From a virus, in the IMG/VR virus record IMGVR_UViG_3300032322_002516, positions 1 through 35,846 of that record: a stretch of 35,846 bases of DNA. One strand, written 5' to 3'. The notes below the pieces were generated by a model. That model was given only the letters and a program-made list of their open reading frames with translations. It had not been told where the DNA came from and did not search any database. Positions 1 to 26,243 of this stretch are shown piece by piece. The stretch's first letter is position 1. The number at the start of each line of letters is the position of its first letter. Position numbers and translations under genes: made by a program.

Positions 1-79
1 AGATATGATGCGACAATATAGCTATTCGGAGACCGGAGAGCTTAACCAAATGTATCTGGACATGATTGAGGATATGTGA
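1..79 (+). CDS. C-terminal fragment of an upstream gene, product unknown
   Basis: An open frame (codons in phase with position 2) enters from the left edge and ends at TGA 77-79. Only about 25 residues are visible, ending in a Met/Asp/Glu-rich tail (LDMIEDM). No function can be assigned. It contains an ETGE segment whose 13 bases (28-40) recur in the same codon phase in the next gene at 526-538. The base composition resembles the GC-richer genes at 485-2313 more than the AT-rich rest, so it may be the last gene of the same cassette. Confidence 0.5.
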   Translation, partial: DMMRQYSYSETGELNQMYLDMIEDM

Positions 80-117
80 TATCCTACCACATAGAATATG
101 CTCCCACATAGGGATGA

Positions 118-142
118 ACCGCCGGCATAATACGCTGGCGGT
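118..142. terminator. GC-rich hairpin, possible weak terminator
   Basis: ACCGCC (118-123) pairs with GGCGGT (137-142) around a 13-base loop. It lies 38 bases after the left-edge stop codon. The following bases are only moderately T-rich (ATTCTTATG), so as an intrinsic terminator it is weaker than the hairpins at 7051, 7554 and 28142. It could be another kind of RNA or DNA structure. Confidence 0.35.
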
Positions 143-173
143 ATTCTTATGCCCACGATTTTCACTTGCGATT

Positions 174-277
174 TTTATATTTATTTTCACCCCTTATATT
201 TACTTGCACCGCTTATATTTAATTTATATAAATCTAACACTTATATTCATTTGCACTCCTTATATTTACTTGAACCG
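174..277 (+). repeat. Array of 19-bp imperfect direct repeats containing the late-promoter-like core
   Basis: Five units start at 174, 193, 212, 240 and 259. Four are 19 bases long and the third is 28. The best form is CTTATATTTACTTGCACCG (193-211); 259-277 differs from it by one base (GAACCG for GCACCG) and 240-258 by a few. Each unit carries TATATTTA or TATATTCA, the core found just before many gene starts here. Two inverse-orientation copies, TAAATATA, follow at 299-306 and 305-312. This may be a promoter cluster, a binding array for a phage regulator, or iteron-like sites. Which of these it is cannot be decided from sequence. Confidence 0.7.
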
Positions 278-462
278 AATTTCATGTAACTGGAAAAATA
301 AATATAAATATAAATCGGGCCTAATCGGTGAAAATATTTCGGGTAATTTTTTCCCATATGGAAACACTTTTTGAAACAAAAGGTTTTTGGCTTCTATTCC
401 CTTTCGGCTCACACCCCATCCGGGCTAAAATTTTTTTGGGGAGTAAAAAACCTATAAGGAAG

Positions 463-471
463 ATATTTATA
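463..471 (+). promoter_or_regulatory. Late-promoter-like motif ATATTTATA before the 485 gene
   Basis: ATATTTATA, 13 bases before the ATG at 485. It has the same core and similar spacing as the motifs at 7598, 14276, 26235, 29379 and 34176. No TTTG element lies at the expected distance upstream. Probably read by the gp55-like sigma at 10729. Confidence 0.55.
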
Positions 472-484
472 GAAAACGCAAGGG

Positions 485-958
485 ATGATACGGCTTAAAG
501 GATTGATACCAATTAGAATACTATGGGAGACCGGAGAGGGCTCGGCCAAACCATACGGGTACGATATGGTGTATTCGGGAGGAACTATGAAGGATTGGGA
601 GTTTAAAACCGATTCGGGTGTGCAATATACGATGACGATTAGCTTGAAACGTAAAACCGTATCGAAGGTGAAGAATACGGTTGAGTGGTATGTGGATTTC
701 AGAATAGAACCGGGTTCTGCGGGGAACACTCAGATGAGTAGGTATGGAGATACAAACCGCGGTGAACTATATCGGGTGATGGCTACGATAGTTGCGATAC
801 TGCGCGAGGAAATTCGAAAGGACGGGGCGCCGGATACTATACGGTGGATTGCCGATGACCGCCGTACCCGGCTATATGGACAGTATATCAAAAGGGCGTT
901 TCCCAAAGCCGTAACAAAGATTAGTGGTAACGAAGTGGTAATGAAATTAAAAGGATGA
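485..958 (+). CDS. Conserved-looking phage protein of unknown function (157 aa)
   Basis: Start ATG follows ATATTTATA by 13 bases. The N-terminus (MIRLKGL) resembles that of the gene at 2372 (MIRLKDL). A beta-rich first half (WEFKTDSGVQYTMTI, then EWYVDFRI) is followed by an alpha-helical stretch (ELYRVMATIVAILREEI), then DTIRWIADDRRTRLYGQYIKR. From memory this layout occurs in uncharacterised small proteins of many marine tailed phages, but I cannot name a family. The GC content and Arg codons (CGG, CGC) differ from the AT-rich genes downstream. The stop overlaps the next start (ATGA at 955-958), implying coupled translation. Function unknown. Confidence 0.75.
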   Translation: MIRLKGLIPIRILWETGEGSAKPYGYDMVYSGGTMKDWEFKTDSGVQYTMTISLKRKTVSKVKNTVEWYVDFRIEPGSAGNTQMSRYGDTNRGELYRVMATIVAILREEIRKDGAPDTIRWIADDRRTRLYGQYIKRAFPKAVTKISGNEVVMKLKG

Positions 959-1209
959 GAGAAGAAGAATATAAGAAGATAGCAAATGGCTTTGGGTGCA
1001 CGGTCGGCCTCGCGACGTTCATTCCGGCCGGATTACGTATAAAAGAAGACCCAACCCGATACATACTACAAGCCATTGATATGGGTGTGTATCCAGCCAT
1101 GCAAAGGAGGGTATTGACAGGTGAGTGGGGGCGGAAGGGCGAAATCGCACGCTACCGAGAAACATTAAAATGGTTAAGAAATGATAAGGCAAAATCCACA
1201 AAGGTATAG
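955..1209 (+). CDS. Hypothetical protein, 84 aa, coupled to the preceding gene
   Basis: The ATG overlaps the previous stop by four bases (ATGA), and its 3' end overlaps the next gene by 29 bases. It is a basic, mostly helical-looking protein with many Arg and Lys residues in its second half (QRRVLTGEWGRKGEIARYRETLKWLR). No signal peptide, membrane segment or metal motif is visible. It shares the GC-richer composition of its neighbours. The tight overlaps on both sides support a real gene in one operon. Product not recognised. Confidence 0.6.
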   Translation: MREEEYKKIANGFGCTVGLATFIPAGLRIKEDPTRYILQAIDMGVYPAMQRRVLTGEWGRKGEIARYRETLKWLRNDKAKSTKV

Positions 1210-2215
1210 CCGGGTAGGTGATGAAGTGCTCGTGGCTGCCAATCCTCCGGCAGTAACCCCACTTGCCATCGGTCTTTCGCCGGAACGTGAACTCCTACCC
1301 CTATTGGAGGCAGATGGAATTATTGTGGAGTGCGCGGGGCGGCTGCTTGTTAGCCCGAAAACACTCGCGAGTCTTTCTGCTGCACGAGAGGGCGGTGACC
1401 CACACTATTGGTACACCCGCAATGGTGAAGTAAAGACAGTATCCGGACTGGCTGCCCCTATGGGTGATGCCGTACCAATCATAAAGGTAGATGTTTCAGG
1501 TCTACAAGGGCTTGCGGCCCAACAGGAATTCGTTCTCCGTACCGCTGGGGTGACGGAAGTGGATTGGTCGTATGATGACCCTGGTCCGGTGCCAAAGGGG
1601 ATTCTGGAGCAAATAAATTGGACTATTAGCCCATCTGCCGAAAGGCCTGCTGACCGGTGGAGGTTATCGGATTTGGGATTGGGTGCGGATTACTCCTATG
1701 CCACATTAAAGATTGCTCCACCGGCCGAGGGCGGCAGGATTGATTACAATGGAATTGCCGAAATAGTTAAGCGTGTTTCCGAACGTCTTGCCGACCTACG
1801 TGTGGATTTTAATCGTATTGGTGATATCTACTTTGATGGTGTACTACCCGAAGGTGTTGGGGAATCCGACCTGATTGTTTCCGCCATTACGGAAGTACCG
1901 CCGGCGCAAGGGCCCGACCCGAATCGCCAAAGGGTACGTAAGGAAACTCGTCTTGTGGGAGTGGATAGTGGACCAACCGAACGTGGTAATGCCGGTGCCG
2001 ATGTGGTAACTGCCATTGGGGCTGCCGATTCTACTTCGGATACGACCCCACCTGCTGCCGAAGATACCGCTCCTACCTCTCCGGTTGATGAGGGAGGTCG
2101 TCGTACTATTGTGGACCGTGCGGTTGGTGTTGCAAATACTGCAATTCGTTTTCTGGGCCTCACTACTCCGGTTGGGCTTATATTCCGCGGATTGCGTAAA
2201 TTGTTTCGCCGATGA
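1181..2215 (+). CDS. Hypothetical protein, 344 aa, with acidic Pro/Thr linker and hydrophobic-basic C-terminal helix
   Basis: The chosen ATG lies inside the end of the previous gene (29-base overlap); a GTG at 1225 is an alternative start. The first ~235 residues look globular. A low-complexity Pro/Thr/Ala/Asp linker follows at about 240-305. The end is a hydrophobic segment with a strongly basic tip (RAVGVANTAIRFLGL ... RGLRKLFRR), which could lie on or in a membrane. The next gene is a 33-residue membrane peptide overlapping this stop, so the two may work together at the membrane. GC-rich codon use sets it apart from most of the window. No homologous family recognised. Confidence 0.7.
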   Translation: MIRQNPQRYSRVGDEVLVAANPPAVTPLAIGLSPERELLPLLEADGIIVECAGRLLVSPKTLASLSAAREGGDPHYWYTRNGEVKTVSGLAAPMGDAVPIIKVDVSGLQGLAAQQEFVLRTAGVTEVDWSYDDPGPVPKGILEQINWTISPSAERPADRWRLSDLGLGADYSYATLKIAPPAEGGRIDYNGIAEIVKRVSERLADLRVDFNRIGDIYFDGVLPEGVGESDLIVSAITEVPPAQGPDPNRQRVRKETRLVGVDSGPTERGNAGADVVTAIGAADSTSDTTPPAAEDTAPTSPVDEGGRRTIVDRAVGVANTAIRFLGLTTPVGLIFRGLRKLFRR

Positions 2216-2313
2216 GAGCCTTAATTTGTATCCTTGTGTTGGCATGGTTGCTTTGGCGAGGATGGATAGTGATTGTGCCGATGGATTGGTTTAGACGATA
2301 TATATCGGTTTGA
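2212..2313 (+). CDS. Tiny single-span membrane protein (33 aa)
   Basis: The ATG overlaps the stop of the 344-aa gene (ATGA, 2212-2215). The peptide starts MRALICILVLAWLLWRGW and continues with IVIVPMDWFRRYISV, giving one hydrophobic, Trp-rich segment (about residues 3-22) and a basic end. The overlap is the same coupling seen at 955, and the composition matches the cassette. It could be a small holin- or toxin-like peptide or a partner of the preceding protein; nothing in the sequence decides this. Confidence 0.5.
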   Translation: MRALICILVLAWLLWRGWIVIVPMDWFRRYISV

Positions 2314-2359
2314 AAAAATGTTGTAATCCTAACGACGGATTAATTCCCCCAACCCCCTT

Positions 2360-2368
2360 ATATTTATT
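2360..2368 (+). promoter_or_regulatory. Late-promoter-like motif (CTTATATTTATTTG) abutting the 2372 start
   Basis: ATATTTATT within CTTATATTTATTTG, leaving only three bases before ATG 2372. The longer context matches the repeat units at 193-277 (CTTATATTTACTTG) and the motif at 11435. If it works as a -10 element, transcription would start at or within the start codon, giving a leaderless message. Confidence 0.55.
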
Positions 2369-2371
2369 TGT

Positions 2372-3199
2372 ATGATAAGACTGAAAGATTTATTGAGTGA
2401 GACAGTAACCGATGTAAAATGGGTATCGAAAGCATATACATTTGCGTATTCACGTAAATTTCCATTTACACCAAAGATTGCAAAAATATTGAATGAAGGT
2501 AAACGTGTTCGGGCGTTTCACATTACAAGTATAAAAAAGTTAGACCAATTGGACTCACTTCAGGGTACTAAAAAGTCTATAAGTTGTATGACCCGCGTAC
2601 CAAACGCATCTATGCGAGTAGATATACCCGGTATTTGGAACTCTGGCGTTATGTTTTATTTGGAGGGTACTTTATTAATTAAAGGCGATGATGATATAAT
2701 GTCCGAACCAGATGAACAGGGCAGACGTTGGGCATCATTGATTGGTAATGTTTTTTTGGATTGGTGGGAGTTTCTTGAGCAGGATAGTAAATTAAAATCT
2801 ATTTTAGATGATATAAACGGAGCTAAACTATTTAAATACTACACATCAGATAAATCTAAAAAGAATGTTAAAAATCGTGGTGAAATTTTAAGAAAATATG
2901 TAGAAAGGTATATACAGCTTGCTGAAAAGTTTGCTGAACAAAATAAAAGTGAATTGGCAGATGCATTTAATTTTGGTTTTGATGATAATCCCGATTCTTG
3001 GGATGAACTATTATTAAATGATATAAAATTGATAGATGTTATATGGGGTGCGGAACGGGATAGAAATAATATAATTGATAAAAATATCGTTAAGAACGTA
3101 AAATCTAAATTAAAGTCAATGGTGTCCGGCAAAGTTACAATTGCCGAAGATGATTCCGATATCAGAGTATTTGTGATGAAGGGTAGAATAAGAAGATAA
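2372..3199 (+). CDS. Unknown phage protein (275 aa), possibly ADP-ribosyltransferase-like fold
   Basis: AT-rich composition returns here. The N-terminus MIRLKDLLSE is a common opening in marine phage proteins. Residues 47-53 (RAFHITS), 67-75 (KKSISCMTR), 92-104 (GVMFYLEGTLLIK) and 111-120 (SEPDEQGRRW) form an ordered set of strands. It recalls the His/Ser/Glu pattern of ADP-ribosyltransferase-like folds and related uncharacterised phage proteins. That assignment is inference from motif spacing only. The C-terminal half is helical and rich in Lys, Asp and Asn. It stands as a separate unit with its own promoter-like motif. Confident as a gene; function unproven. Confidence 0.8.
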   Translation: MIRLKDLLSETVTDVKWVSKAYTFAYSRKFPFTPKIAKILNEGKRVRAFHITSIKKLDQLDSLQGTKKSISCMTRVPNASMRVDIPGIWNSGVMFYLEGTLLIKGDDDIMSEPDEQGRRWASLIGNVFLDWWEFLEQDSKLKSILDDINGAKLFKYYTSDKSKKNVKNRGEILRKYVERYIQLAEKFAEQNKSELADAFNFGFDDNPDSWDELLLNDIKLIDVIWGAERDRNNIIDKNIVKNVKSKLKSMVSGKVTIAEDDSDIRVFVMKGRIRR

Positions 3200-3220
3200 A
3201 CAAATAATTTTTAATTTCAA

Positions 3221-3229
3221 ATATTTAAT
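3221..3229 (+). promoter_or_regulatory. Degenerate late-promoter-like motif ATATTTAAT
   Basis: ATATTTAAT lies 15 bases before the small ATG at 3245, the spacing seen for exact motifs elsewhere. One base departs from the consensus, so this is a weaker call. Confidence 0.3.
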
Positions 3230-3244
3230 ATAAAATAGGTTACT

Positions 3245-3352
3245 ATGAATTGGTATGTAACAAGTACAGGGTATTCAAATTGGTCTAGTCCGAATCCATA
3301 TTGGAATTGTATAAAAGTCATTTATGAATATAAAAGCCTTAGAAAAAATTGA
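3245..3352 (+). CDS. Possible small peptide gene, 35 aa, Trp/Tyr-rich
   Basis: ATG 3245 opens a 35-residue frame starting MNWYVTSTGYSNWSSPNPYW and ending at TGA 3350-3352. It has four Trp and four Tyr residues and no clear membrane span. It lies 15 bases after a degenerate promoter-like motif and fills an otherwise empty gap, but overlaps the next gene by 29 bases. Real translation is uncertain; it could be a leader peptide or chance. Confidence 0.3.
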   Translation: MNWYVTSTGYSNWSSPNPYWNCIKVIYEYKSLRKN

Positions 3353-3629
3353 AGGAGCGTGGATAAAGTATAATTGGGATTTCTTGAAAGAGCGTCAAAC
3401 TATTCCATTCGGTGTATTGGTTTCCATAGTTGATATCATAGAAAGGTTTTATAAAAATAAATCGGCAAAGGAATTGGTTTTAATGAAAATAAATGGATTG
3501 CCGGCTTACATAGTTGTACATCGTAATGATTACAAAGAATTATTGAGCTGGTTGCAAGATAAATTTATAGAATTAGAAATGTTTGAAATATGCGCACGTA
3601 TTCAATCAATTAAACAAAAAGTTGTATGA
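3324..3629 (+). CDS. Hypothetical protein, 101 aa
   Basis: Largely alpha-helical and Lys/Glu-rich (ALEKIEGAWIKYNWDFLKERQ; DKFIELEMFEICARIQSIKQK). No metal motif, signal or membrane segment. The start region is A/T-rich without a Shine-Dalgarno sequence, as for most genes here. The stop overlaps the next start (3626), which points to an operon with the zinc-ribbon gene. Not recognised. Confidence 0.65.
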   Translation: MNIKALEKIEGAWIKYNWDFLKERQTIPFGVLVSIVDIIERFYKNKSAKELVLMKINGLPAYIVVHRNDYKELLSWLQDKFIELEMFEICARIQSIKQKVV

Positions 3630-3844
3630 ACAAAGTAGAAGAAATACTAAAATCATGGGCAATCCAATTAAGCCCAAATGATGAGCAAAACGAATTGGCG
3701 GCCAAACGTTTAGAAATTTGTAATAAATGCGAAAAGAAAAAGAAAAATTCGGTTGGCGTGTATGTGTGTTCCGAATGTGGCTGCGTTTTAAAATCAAAAG
3801 TTTTCACTCCGGCGGAAAAGGGGTGTCCATTAGGTAAATGGTAA
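3626..3844 (+). CDS. Small zinc-ribbon protein (72 aa)
   Basis: Cysteines at 32 and 35 (CNKC), then 48, 51 and 53 (CSECGC), and a final CPLGKW (Cys67) make a likely zinc-binding knuckle pair. A short helical N-terminus precedes it (residues 1-30, ending AAKRLEIC). Small proteins ending in CP-x-GKW after a CxxCGC motif are frequent in tailed phages and Bacteroidota; their role is generally unknown. It may bind nucleic acid or protein. It is translationally coupled to the 101-aa gene upstream and three bases from the next gene. Confidence 0.7.
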   Translation: MNKVEEILKSWAIQLSPNDEQNELAAKRLEICNKCEKKKKNSVGVYVCSECGCVLKSKVFTPAEKGCPLGKW

Positions 3845-3847
3845 TGT

Positions 3848-4171
3848 ATGATAACAGTCCCACAAACTCCAATAACTGATGCAAGTTTTAGAAAATGGAA
3901 GTGCTTCAAAATAGATGTAAAGGATGATGAATCAGGCGAAAACTATTGGTATTGGATTATACCATTAGTCGATGCCAGCGAAGAGGATTTTCTAAAGGTA
4001 GATGATTACTATCCACATATGTGGTCTTCCGAAAATGGTGAATTTATAGATGATGATGGAAATCACGTGTATTCTATTTTTATGTTTGATGATGATCTAC
4101 CAGCATTAACTACCGAAGAAGAAGTGGAGATTATATACCAAATACTTACCAAAAAGGATTTATATAATTGA
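3848..4171 (+). CDS. Hypothetical acidic protein, 107 aa
   Basis: Starts three bases after the zinc-ribbon stop and is strongly acidic, with clusters of Asp and Glu (DVKDDESGENYWYW; FIDDDGNHVYS; MFDDDLPALTTEEEVE). No membrane segment, signal or catalytic motif is visible. Highly acidic small phage proteins sometimes act as DNA mimics or inhibitors, but nothing here shows that. Probably the last gene of the 3324-4171 operon. Confidence 0.65.
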   Translation: MITVPQTPITDASFRKWKCFKIDVKDDESGENYWYWIIPLVDASEEDFLKVDDYYPHMWSSENGEFIDDDGNHVYSIFMFDDDLPALTTEEEVEIIYQILTKKDLYN

Positions 4172-4199
4172 TTATATTTTTTATTTTAAAATAAATACT

Positions 4200-7138: not shown

Positions 7139-7531
7139 ATGTATTACAAAAAATACGATGCACTTGATAGGATTTTTGATTCGTTTTTTAACGATACGAT
7201 ATTTACTACAACTGAATATCAATACGAAAATTCCAAATTGGCAATTGAAGTATTGGATGATAAAGCACAGATTGCTTTATCAGTATTAGGACACTCTAAA
7301 GATGATATTACAATTGAATTACACGAAGATTCTATTGTAGTAAAATCGGCAGAAAAGGAAATGACATCTATCCAAAAGCAATTAATTTCAAAAGTTAATG
7401 AAAAGATTGCCGTAGGTAAAAAATTTGATGGAGAAAAAGCCGAAGCAAAGATTTTAAATGGTGTTCTCTATCTTACCATTCCTAAAAAAGAGGAAGCAAA
7501 ACCAAAACGTGTGGAAATTAAAGTTGATTAA
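7139..7531 (+). CDS. Small heat-shock protein, Hsp20/alpha-crystallin family (130 aa)
   Basis: The alpha-crystallin domain spans about residues 28-125: KLAIEVLDDKAQIALSVLGHSKDDITIELHEDSIVVKS is the typical beta2-beta5 order (split here: KLAIEVLDD, then VLGHSKDDI, then DSIVVKS). KILNGVLYLTIPK is the usual conserved A-x-x-x-NGVL block, and the C-terminus ends in charged residues with a weak V-x-I tail. These ATP-independent chaperones hold unfolding proteins. Marine T4-like phages often carry one, perhaps to aid capsid and tail assembly. It is framed by terminators at 7051 and 7554, so it is a single-gene unit. No clear promoter was found in the 114 bases upstream. Confidence 0.88.
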   Translation: MYYKKYDALDRIFDSFFNDTIFTTTEYQYENSKLAIEVLDDKAQIALSVLGHSKDDITIELHEDSIVVKSAEKEMTSIQKQLISKVNEKIAVGKKFDGEKAEAKILNGVLYLTIPKKEEAKPKRVEIKVD

Positions 7532-7553
7532 TTCACAAAAAAGTGTTATATTA

Positions 7554-7590
7554 ATGGGTGAAGTCAGAAAAACTTCACCCATTTTTGTTT
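7554..7590 (+). terminator. Intrinsic terminator after the Hsp20 gene
   Basis: ATGGGTGAAGT (7554-7564) pairs with ACTTCACCCAT (7572-7582) around a seven-base loop, followed by TTTTGTTT. It ends eight bases before the ATATTTATA at 7598, so one unit stops and the next begins almost at once. Confidence 0.85.
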
Positions 7591-7597
7591 TATGGGG

Positions 7598-7606
7598 ATA
7601 TTTATA
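7598..7606 (+). promoter_or_regulatory. Late-promoter-like motif ATATTTATA before the 7625 gene
   Basis: ATATTTATA directly after a terminator and 18 bases before ATG 7625. The terminator/motif/start order strongly suggests a promoter reading rightward. Confidence 0.65.
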
Positions 7607-7624
7607 CTTATAAACTTTAAACAA

Positions 7625-7801
7625 ATGAATTATAAAGATAAAATAGAATCTCTTTTAGAATCTCTCGAATCTAAAATGTCTATAATTGAAAATGTGGCGA
7701 ATGGTCGCATGCGATTGGATACGAATGACCTTATATTTGTTATCGAAGATTGTAAAAGAATCAGAGAAAAAATTAGTGAACTCATATCCATAGAAAGATA
7801 A
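7625..7801 (+). CDS. Small helical hypothetical protein (58 aa)
   Basis: I use ATG 7625 (MNYKDKIESLLESLESK); an upstream ATG at 7593 would place the promoter motif inside the gene. The protein is predicted helical and charged, with heptad-like Leu/Ile spacing (IESLLESLESKMSIIENV), so a short coiled coil is likely. It stops two bases before the next start, so the two are probably co-transcribed. Function unknown. Confidence 0.6.
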   Translation: MNYKDKIESLLESLESKMSIIENVANGRMRLDTNDLIFVIEDCKRIREKISELISIER

Positions 7802-7802
7802 A

Positions 7803-8885
7803 ATGAATTGGCTTAAATTTTTAGTGGCTTTAGCTGCCTTTGTGGTAGCTGGCTGCGCTGCATATTTTTCAGTAACCGGTTTGGGAATACTATTCAGTGG
7901 TGCATCAATCGCCGTAATGGTAATGGCATCTGCGTTAGAGTTTTCAAAATTGGTAGCAGCATCATATTTAAAACAATCTTGGGATTCAATTGGTAAAGTA
8001 TTAAAAATTTATTTGGTTTTGGCCGTAGTTATCTTAATGATAATAACTTCAGCGGGTATTTTTGGATATCTTTCTAACGCGTTTCAACAGCAAAACCTAA
8101 AAATTCAACAAGTTGAACGTGAAATATCCATTTGGGAGCAAAAAATCAACACGAACAAAGAACAAATAGAAATTTTTAACACACAATTAAATAATTTCCA
8201 GCAAAATCAGGGTAAAATAATTGATTTACAACAAGGTAATCGCGCGAATAGTAGACTTTTACGCTCAGTTGATAATAGAGATAGACAAATCACCGAAACT
8301 TCTGAAAAAATTGATGTTTTGCAAAGTGAAATCGTACAATATAACGATACTATTAACAAAATTAAGAATGCAAACATAGATATTGAGCGGGAAGTGGGTG
8401 GATTTCGTTTTGTTGCCGAAGCATTTGGAGTAGATTTGAACTCGGTTGTAAAATTTTTCATATTTTTGATAGTTTTTGTGTTTGACCCATTGGCAATTGC
8501 TCTGGTCATCGCGTTTAATAACTTAATTAGACAAAATTCCGAAAAAAAATCAACTCCAAACGATGGAATTAGAGTATTTAAGGTTTATGGTGATGATAAA
8601 GACGATAATATCATAAATTTATCCGAAAAAGATTCAAAAATACTTGAAGAAACATTAGAAAATCCCCCAATTCCGAATGATGCACTAAAAACTGCGGCAG
8701 ATGAGTATAAAAACGTGGTAGAAAGTGAAAAAAACGAAAAACCTGAGCAAGATTGGTTAAATGCTTACAATGGGCAACCATACTACACAAATCCTGAGTT
8801 TCCGTGGGATAAAAAACATCTTTGGCAGAATGACCAAAAGGCAGTCAACCATTGGATGAACAATAAGGGCCTCGGTAATTATTAA
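7803..8885 (+). CDS. Four-span membrane protein with central coiled coil (360 aa)
   Basis: Hydrophobic segments at about 5-30, 33-55 and 66-90 are followed by a Gln/Asn/Ile-rich coiled coil (about 96-195) and a fourth span near 215-239 (VVKFFIFLIVFVFDPLAIALVIAFNN). The C-terminal 120 residues are polar and end in a Trp/Tyr-rich stretch (NGQPYYTNPEFPWDKKHLW). The FDPLA motif inside the last span recurs, from memory, in uncharacterised membrane proteins of marine phages. The coil would form a soluble domain between spans 3 and 4. A role at the host membrane (superinfection exclusion, membrane remodelling, lysis control) is possible but unproven. Confidence 0.7.
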   Translation: MNWLKFLVALAAFVVAGCAAYFSVTGLGILFSGASIAVMVMASALEFSKLVAASYLKQSWDSIGKVLKIYLVLAVVILMIITSAGIFGYLSNAFQQQNLKIQQVEREISIWEQKINTNKEQIEIFNTQLNNFQQNQGKIIDLQQGNRANSRLLRSVDNRDRQITETSEKIDVLQSEIVQYNDTINKIKNANIDIEREVGGFRFVAEAFGVDLNSVVKFFIFLIVFVFDPLAIALVIAFNNLIRQNSEKKSTPNDGIRVFKVYGDDKDDNIINLSEKDSKILEETLENPPIPNDALKTAADEYKNVVESEKNEKPEQDWLNAYNGQPYYTNPEFPWDKKHLWQNDQKAVNHWMNNKGLGNY

Positions 8886-8887
8886 TA

Positions 8888-8919
8888 TTTGGTTTTTTGA
8901 TAAAATTTTGTTATATTTA
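8888..8919 (+). promoter_or_regulatory. Host-type promoter before the UV endonuclease/deformylase/sigma operon
   Basis: TTTG (8888-8891), 20 bases, then TATATTTA (8912-8919), one base from the TAnnTTTG consensus. ATG 8936 is 16 bases further on. It would place the gp55-like sigma under host polymerase, before late expression. TATATTTA also contains part of the late core, so a dual role is possible. Confidence 0.45.
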
Positions 8920-8935
8920 GGTAATAATTAATATT

Positions 8936-9835
8936 ATGAATTTAGGTTACGCTTGTATAAACTTATCATTGGGTAAAAAGATTACCACAAATCGAAGTAT
9001 GGTTAAAAAAACTCTTGATAGTAAAGGATTGGATTACGTGTCAGAACTTGCACTTAAAAACGCAAGTGATATTATCAAAATATTGGAATGGAATGTAGCA
9101 AACGATATTTACTTTTTCAGACTATCATCTGCCATCATTCCTTGGGGTGACCATATTGATATTACTGCCTTAAAGGATTACAAACAAATTGCAACCGAGC
9201 TCAGAAAGGCAGGTGATTACGCCCAATTGATGGGTGTTCGTATTACATCGCATCCTGGTCCATTTGTAGTTCTTACATCCCCTAAAGAAAGTGTAGTCCA
9301 CAATGCAATCGCAGATTTGGAACTACACGCTAAAATATTCGACCTAATGGGGCTAGAACGTTCTCCTTACAATAAGATAAACATACACTGTAACGGCGTT
9401 TATGGCAACAAGAAAGAGGCAATGGATAGATTCTGTACCAATTTTGATAGATTATCGGAATCGGTTCGTTCTCGGCTTACCGTTGAGAATGATGATAAGG
9501 CATCTATGTATTCTGTAAAAGATTTACTATACGTACACAATAAAATCGGTATTCCGATTGTGTTCGATTATCATCACCATCAATTTTGTACAAGTGATTG
9601 GACGGAAGAAGAAGCACTGAAAGCAGCAGCTACCACTTGGCCAAAAGGCATAACACCGGTTGTGCATTATTCCGAATCGAAAGCATTGCACGAAAACAAC
9701 ATCAAAGAAAAACCACAAGCTCACTCTAATTATATTAATTCACTCCCCAATACATACGAATTGGATGTAGATATTATGGTTGAAGCGAAAGCAAAAGAGT
9801 TAGCTATTTTACCATTTATAAACAAAGTTATATGA
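8936..9835 (+). CDS. uvsE: UV damage endonuclease, UvdE/UvsE family (299 aa)
   Basis: This is a TIM-barrel repair enzyme that nicks DNA 5' to UV photoproducts. Family landmarks appear in order: GYACINLSL (4-12), FRLSSAIIPWG (61-71), SHPGPF (His106), VHN (His123), INIHCNGVYGNK (His151), TVENDD (Glu184), IVFDYHHH (Asp211, His213-215), VVHYSES (His244) and AHSNYI (His263). These cover the His/Asp/Glu ligands of the metal cluster. Length is close to bacterial UVDE. Phage copies probably repair phage DNA damaged by sunlight, fitting a surface-water habitat. First gene of an operon; its stop overlaps the deformylase start (ATGA, 9832-9835). Confidence 0.92.
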   Translation: MNLGYACINLSLGKKITTNRSMVKKTLDSKGLDYVSELALKNASDIIKILEWNVANDIYFFRLSSAIIPWGDHIDITALKDYKQIATELRKAGDYAQLMGVRITSHPGPFVVLTSPKESVVHNAIADLELHAKIFDLMGLERSPYNKINIHCNGVYGNKKEAMDRFCTNFDRLSESVRSRLTVENDDKASMYSVKDLLYVHNKIGIPIVFDYHHHQFCTSDWTEEEALKAAATTWPKGITPVVHYSESKALHENNIKEKPQAHSNYINSLPNTYELDVDIMVEAKAKELAILPFINKVI

Positions 9836-14275: not shown

Positions 14276-14284
14276 ATATTTATA
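14276..14284 (+). promoter_or_regulatory. Late-promoter-like motif before the gp25/gp6 baseplate unit
   Basis: ATATTTATA followed by an A-rich stretch, 14 bases before ATG 14299. It would drive the long unit 14299-26214, which has no other clear motif between genes. Confidence 0.6.
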
Positions 14285-14298
14285 AAAAAGAAAAATCT

Positions 14299-14808
14299 AT
14301 GTCTAAATCGGATGTATTAATAACTCTCATTAAAGAGGTTATAAAAAATGAAGTTAAAAAACAAGTAGAAGAAGAAGTAAAGAGATTGGTTAGGCAAACT
14401 GCTTTAAATCCATATGTGGGTGGTGTGATAGAACCAAAAACCAAAAATACTAATTCTGTGTTAAAAAATAAATTCATTGCAAAAGAATCTGTATCGAAGG
14501 TTTCAACTCCAAAACGCACTTTATCTAAAGATCCTATGCTTAACGAAATTCTAAATTCAACTACACCATTTACCGCAGACCAAAGACGTGAAGGTGTTGG
14601 ATTAGCTGGAATGATGGGTGGGTCTGTTTTAGATGCTATTCATCGGAATTCTGAAGATGGTTGGGGAGAGATAAATCTTTCTACAAAGAATATGAGCTAT
14701 GAACCAACACCACAAGTGACGGTTGAAAGCACTGGTAATGAAGCAGTCGATATTGTAGCAAAAGCATTGACTAGAGATTACACTGAGTTAGTTAAAAGAT
14801 TTAAATAA
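14299..14808 (+). CDS. Hypothetical structural protein upstream of gp25 (169 aa)
   Basis: The N-terminus is a basic/acidic amphipathic helix (VLITLIKEVIKNEVKKQVEEEV), probably a coiled coil. A flexible polar middle follows, then GVGLAGMMGGSVLDAI and a helical end (EAVDIVAKALTRDYTELVKRFK in parts: VDIVAKALTRDY). The last base overlaps the gp25 start. First gene in the baseplate wedge unit, so likely a baseplate or chaperone component; not recognised. Confidence 0.65.
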   Translation: MSKSDVLITLIKEVIKNEVKKQVEEEVKRLVRQTALNPYVGGVIEPKTKNTNSVLKNKFIAKESVSKVSTPKRTLSKDPMLNEILNSTTPFTADQRREGVGLAGMMGGSVLDAIHRNSEDGWGEINLSTKNMSYEPTPQVTVESTGNEAVDIVAKALTRDYTELVKRFK

Positions 14809-15245
14809 TGGCAATAGAACTTGGTAGAGTAAGTGTACAAGACCTTTCCGAAAACGATTACAAATCGTTAGGGATATCCATAAACCAAACATCGAATAGC
14901 AATGGTGTTTTTGCTGTGAATTATACTACTTTATCTCAAGTAAAATATAATTTGATTAATCTAATCCTAACAAAAAAAGGTGAACGCGTAATGCAACCCG
15001 AATTTGGATGTGATATATGGGGGATACTTTTTGAACCAATTATTGAGGGGCAAATTGATGCAGAAATAGAAAGAACAGTAACAGAAGCAGTAAACATTTG
15101 GTTACCATATATAAATGTAGACCAAATATTATTTGATTATGATGAAAACGATATTGATAATCATAGAGTAAACCTTGAATTACAATTTTCATTGACATCT
15201 AATCCTGCTATAAGAGATTCAGTAACAATAAACGTAAACGGATAA
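14808..15245 (+). CDS. 25: gp25-like baseplate wedge protein (145 aa)
   Basis: Contains the gpW/gp25 family signature: a helix ending in LTKKGERVMQPEFGCDIWGILFEP (split: LTKKGERVMQ; PEFGCDIWG; ILFEP; EFG at 65-67), followed by an alpha/beta end with NLELQFSL. gp25 is a conserved core wedge protein that links the baseplate to the first sheath ring in contractile systems. It is about 13 residues longer than T4 gp25. Overlaps its upstream neighbour by one base and is followed by gp6, the usual order in contractile tails. Confidence 0.9.
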   Translation: MAIELGRVSVQDLSENDYKSLGISINQTSNSNGVFAVNYTTLSQVKYNLINLILTKKGERVMQPEFGCDIWGILFEPIIEGQIDAEIERTVTEAVNIWLPYINVDQILFDYDENDIDNHRVNLELQFSLTSNPAIRDSVTINVNG

Positions 15246-26234: not shown

Positions 26235-26243
26235 ATATTTATA
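26235..26243 (+). promoter_or_regulatory. Late-promoter-like motif before the 26264 gene
   Basis: TATATTTATA containing ATATTTATA, 20 bases before ATG 26264 and just after the giant gene's stop. Confidence 0.6.

Follow-up and report, generated by a model that had tools for sequence, protein, structure and literature searches.

A putative lineage-specific array of asymmetric binding sites at the early/late gene boundary of a T4-like phage

Introduction

Plasmid iteron origins, such as P1 oriR and that of F, consist of several asymmetric direct repeats of 17-22 bp beside an AT-rich stretch, and phage repressors bind multi-site operators or stoperators. The oriE iterons of phage T4 are 12-nt evenly spaced direct repeats near repEA, whose role is unproven and for which use as an origin has been proposed (PMC3016281). 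T4 late promoters have the consensus TATAAATA (PMC1524935), and promoters of Bacteroidota hosts combine a -33 TTTG with a -7 TANNTTTG element (PMC6847099).

Here we analyze a repeat array in the 35.8-kb virus record IMGVR_UViG_3300032322_002516 ("the window" hereafter, meaning the whole stretch of 35,846 nt, to which coordinates refer unless another genome is named). Our best reading is a lineage-specific array of asymmetric binding sites, of operator or iteron type, at the boundary between early and late genes, with both the bound protein and the function putative. If a protein does bind it, the array would provide an entry point to transcription or replication control in large, probably Bacteroidota phages, for which such control sites appear, from a narrow literature search, to be little described.

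Results

The window belongs to a T4-like phage with a contractile tail, as judged from a baseplate wedge homologue whose closest isolates are Flavobacterium phage immuto and Microcystis phage Mel-JY01 (~40% identity), and the promoter type together with these isolate relatives suggests that the host is probably a member of the Bacteroidota. IMG/VR contig 3300045999_010033 (221,095 bp; the 221-kb relative) is 97.5% identical to window positions 2-4182 and 94-99% identical to much of the remainder. Because both of its ends match the same zone of the window (~5.0-6.2 kb), the contig probably represents a complete genome that is circularly permuted; nearly all of its genes run in one direction. 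It also carries 23 tRNA genes and a tmRNA gene clustered at 40-60 kb, and a run of paralogous-looking genes of 66-81 aa in its early region (7238-9057). Among annotated phages there was neither a DNA match nor a homologue of the proteins flanking the array, no isolate known to carry the array emerged from the collections searched, and scans seeded with proteins of the next closest relatives, contigs L125 and L127, returned no usable matches.

Upstream of the array lie tens of kilobases of very small, early-type genes resembling the small hypothetical genes of immuto, and downstream of it genes with late promoters begin. The G+C content of window positions 1-2215 is ~41-53%, compared with ~32% in the rest, and is closer to that of the early region upstream. 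The array itself occupies a non-coding gap of 406 bp (79-484) that contains, in order, a hairpin, five direct units, an AT-rich stretch and a late promoter; these features, and those of the adjoining genes, are as follows.

118..142, + strand: hairpin, 9 bp, G+C-rich, without a T-run, directly after the upstream ORF; identical in the 221-kb relative
175..193, + strand: unit 1, TTATATTTATTTTCACCCC, tail TTTTCACC; the sole unit fitting the late-promoter ATATTTAT
194..212, + strand: unit 2, TTATATTTACTTGCACCGC, tail CTTGCACC; the 221-kb relative has an additional 19-bp unit after it
213..240, + strand: unit 3, TTATATTTAATTTATATAAATCTAACAC, 28 bp, tail degenerate (AATTTATATAAATC)
241..259, + strand: unit 4, TTATATTCATTTGCACTCC, tail TTTGCACT
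260..278, + strand: unit 5, TTATATTTACTTGAACCGA, tail CTTGAACC
295..313, - strand: AT-rich stretch, two overlapping reverse-strand TATATTTA cores
463..471, + strand: predicted late promoter ATATTTATA of gene 485
485..958, + strand: gene 485, 157 aa, first gene downstream; N-terminus MIRLKGLI, capsid-targeting-like
2355..2370, + strand: single core copy CCCTTATATTTATTTG, ending 1 nt before the ATG of gene 2372

Direct reading, together with motif and repeat scans, places TTATATTYA on the + strand at 175, 194, 213, 241 and 260, in units of the pattern TTATATTYA-n-TT, followed in most by GCACC, with spacings of 19, 19, 28 and 19 bp. The array is about 185-310 nt upstream of gene 485, every unit being more than 180 nt away. 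A previous sequence-only reading had described five direct repeats of period 19, one of them 28 bp long, in a non-coding gap of about 400 bases, and these were recovered at 175-278 and exceed what shuffling produces. Across 500 dinucleotide shuffles of the gap, the best motif-free self-match at any lag of 10-39 reached 26, against 28/38 in the gap itself, and TTATATTYA occurred 0.05 times on average and at most twice, against 5 copies in the gap; the motif statistic was chosen after the array had been seen, a bias that the lag-based test does not share. Within the window, such repeat structure occurs solely at the array.

Other details of that reading needed amendment. The ACTTGCACC-like tail that it assigned to each unit is present in four of the five but lacking in unit 3, and the two opposite-orientation cores that it placed behind the array do exist (reverse-strand TAAATATA at 298-305 and 304-311) but overlap, and thus form one AT-rich AAATAAATATAAATATAAA stretch rather than two independent sites. 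The phasing of the units on one helical face was not upheld, since 19 bp corresponds to 1.81 turns, or ~70 degrees of rotation per unit, and the sites are therefore not strictly on one face of the DNA. The stretch at 295-313 pairs with 171-187, at the start of the array, as a 17-nt inverted repeat (94%). Folded as single-stranded DNA, positions 100-320 outperform shuffles (z -4.1), largely because of the hairpin and the 171-187/295-311 inverted repeat. A structured RNA behind the array was rejected, as 296-500 (+) and 296-484 (-) fold no better than shuffles and gave no Rfam match.

The array had been expected at the same place in close relatives, and the one available keeps it, with six units in place of five. 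One unit there differs by two transitions, TTTACTTG to TTCATTTG, a swap of unit type that points to recombination between units or slippage. In this comparison of two genomes that are 97% identical to each other, positions 131-484 of the gap differ at 4 of 354 sites, as against 50 of 1147 third codon positions (p=0.003), an approximately fourfold lower substitution rate which indicates that the region is constrained; against the mean of the surrounding DNA as a whole, which includes coding sequence, divergence of the gap was not significantly different (p=0.32). Among the 99 stretches returned by an exact 16-mer scan of other viruses, the array was found in the 221-kb relative alone. It is absent from a 252-kb relative and from the stretches that could be checked in relatives found through the phosphohydrolase gene, and contigs L125 and L127 stop short of the syntenic position.

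This phage group uses TATATTTATA as its late promoter word, which starts ~10-55 nt before the ATG and resembles the Bacteroidota -7 box plus an extension, just as T4 TATAAATA compares with TATAAT. Upstream of genes, ATATTTAT has 26 sense copies and one antisense copy in the 221-kb phage (expected 1.1), and 31 and none, respectively, in the 252-kb relative. This clean, strand-specific late word is a by-product that is probably more useful than the array. Examples of TATATTTATA in the window lie at 463-471, 14276-14284 and 26235-26243. The early genes of immuto use another promoter (TTGC, ~19 nt, TATATTTAGG), and in its 65-77 kb region the small genes each have one of a dozen or so almost identical early promoters (GTTGC, ~19 nt, TATATTTAGGTATCAATAATTAAAA).

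The proposal that the array is built from the late-promoter core did not survive comparison with this word. In four of the five units the word is disrupted (TTTAC, TTTAA, TTCAT and TTTAC), and the array variants ATATTTAC, ATATTTAA and ATATTCAT, as well as TATATTCA, show no enrichment upstream of genes. The array has neither the placement of a late promoter (ATATTTAT/TATATTTATA, in sense, ~10-55 nt before a start codon) nor that of a host promoter (-33 TTG 19-20 nt upstream of the TANNTTTG/A element), its TTG lying 7 or 26 nt from the core. Given the mismatch to the late word and this TTG spacing, the units match neither promoter class apart from the common TATATTTA.

Beyond the array, a weight matrix built from the units matched one isolated copy, at window 2355, and a cluster in the 221-kb relative (14792-14860), so that, as expected of an operator array, the site recurs in other control regions of the genome. 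The 221-kb relative has 13 copies of the word TTATATTYATTT, compared with 0.9 in order-3 Markov simulations; 12 of the 13 lie between 3.0 and 14.9 kb, and a triple within 100 bp never arose in the simulations. The copies at 7487, 7945 and perhaps 9059 are discounted because they stand at the starts of small, partly paralogous genes, and these two or three dispersed copies may stem from gene duplication or from A-rich translation starts. The second CCTTATATTYATTT cluster (14795, 14819 and 14849) is oriented opposite to transcription and sits in a 567-bp non-coding control gap (14422-14988) that also holds three phased dyads TTRRATATTTTCTAA at 14680, 14712 and 14743, spaced 31-32 bp or three helical turns apart, and a host-type promoter TTG-N19-TAACTTTG. 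It has the core in common with the array, without the 19-bp spacing and the GCACC tail. Protein-coding repeats aside, these two gaps are the clearest triple-repeat loci of the 221-kb relative. The 252-kb relative contains two dispersed words of the TTATATTYATTT type, few and scattered enough that the system looks lineage-specific.

Genes 485 and 2372 both begin MIRLK(D/G)L, a motif carried by at least six proteins of the phage. These MIRLKDLL-like N-termini, encoded at 485 and 2372 in the window and at 172267-180618 in the 221-kb relative, are reminiscent of the T4 capsid-targeting sequence (PMC3012670), which would make the proteins candidate internal head or ejected proteins. Structure predictions for two neighbouring proteins were of low confidence. 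Gene 2372 has a predicted promoter core (window 2359-2372) whose end lies ~5 nt upstream of the ATG, so that the mRNA would have little or no leader. A C-rich element, CCCCCAACCCCC (CCCCCAGCCCCC in L127), is kept in otherwise diverged intergenic DNA downstream of gene-1181 homologues (window 2335-2375, L125:3137-3160, L127:958-985).

Discussion

The array is maintained in two phages that differ in its copy number, its core recurs in a second gap in the opposite orientation, and its units match neither promoter class. Tentatively, and at slightly less than an even chance, we favour a non-coding array, with core CCTTATATTYATTT and a 19-bp period, that controls transcription and is recognized at the DNA level by a sequence-specific protein, which the phage probably encodes. 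The protein, its cooperativity and its role in transcription are all what we infer: it would bind several adjacent sites, most likely cooperatively, and their occupancy would control transcription across the early/late boundary or of the late-promoter gene 485, with the isolated copy that overlaps the gene 2372 start acting as a weaker operator of the same regulon. The orientation of the second cluster argues against an RNA function common to both loci and favours a site read as DNA. Of the earlier suggestion of a protein-bound regulator array, the maintained repeats and the plausibility of protein binding stand, but a gp55-type target is unsupported; a search for Sigma70_r2 in the 221-kb relative found no match. 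Counting against the binding array, no candidate for the bound protein was identified. A broader and rather unlikely proposal is that the two CCTTATATTYATTT gaps constitute a phage regulon or replication control, in which one protein would coordinate early genes, the early/late boundary and possibly origin firing.

Second in our preference after a transcription-control array is an iteron-type replication origin, in which an initiator would bind the direct repeats and melt the adjoining AT-rich 295-313; we consider it unlikely. Five to six 19-bp asymmetric direct repeats adjoin an AT-rich inverted segment, as in iteron origins, copy number differs between near-identical phages, and T4 oriE also has evenly spaced direct repeats (PMC3016281). 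However, a search of the 221-kb and 252-kb genomes for Rep3_N, the single initiator family covered, gave no match, none of the neighbouring genes tested is initiator-like, the B-family polymerase lies ~95 kb from the array, and the single copy at 2355 is left unexplained. Cumulative GC skew, which had been proposed as a check for an origin, shows no inflection, but it is monotonic because nearly all genes run one way and is thus uninformative, neither supporting nor locating an origin.

Somewhat less probable again is that slippage duplicated an AT-rich segment in tandem, neutrally and without function. The gain or loss of one unit and the TTTACTTG/TTCATTTG swap between near-identical phages fit this, as does the absence of the array from other relatives, but the core is intact in all units, the gap has diverged less than third codon positions, and the same core lies with other spacing in a second, separate gap, which slippage cannot yield.

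We regard as improbable an element acting at the RNA level, that is, a C-rich, G-poor unstructured leader or terminator (Rho-utilisation-like) that would end early transcription after the hairpin at 118-142. The hairpin does sit ahead of the array, and in the 221-kb relative the array ranks within the top 0.04% of 110-nt windows for C minus G on the transcript strand, yet it is the T/A core and not the C-rich tail that is most conserved, the oppositely oriented second cluster would give purine-rich RNA, and the hairpin has no T-run. Marginally more improbable are tandem late promoters feeding the late block: TATATTTA is common to the units and TATATTTATA, and gene 485 is late-type, but the TA extension is absent from four of five units, the array variants show no enrichment ahead of genes, the host-type TTG is misplaced, and gene 485 has its own perfect late promoter at 463. 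A TubZ-type partition site was rejected, as it requires a tubulin-like partner and no Tubulin match was found.

Among described systems, T4-type late promoters (TATAAATA, gp55) and the group word TATATTTATA come close in that the array carries the TATATTTA core of the group word, but it differs in lacking the diagnostic TA extension in four of five units and in standing apart from the gene 485 promoter. Like T4 oriE, it is a set of short direct repeats limited to one region of a T4-like genome, but its 19-bp period, unrelated sequence and gene neighbourhood are different, and neither an initiator nor a skew inflection was found. With the iterons of P1 oriR and F it shares asymmetric direct repeats next to an AT-rich stretch, although a Rep3-type initiator was not found here and the skew carries no origin signal. 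Whereas a repressor was not identified here and the sites, unlike repressor operators and stoperators, are low in number and restricted to a small portion of the genome, the array resembles such operators in having repeated, asymmetric sites that lie in or near intergenic regions, occur in both orientations and include a single copy over a gene start.
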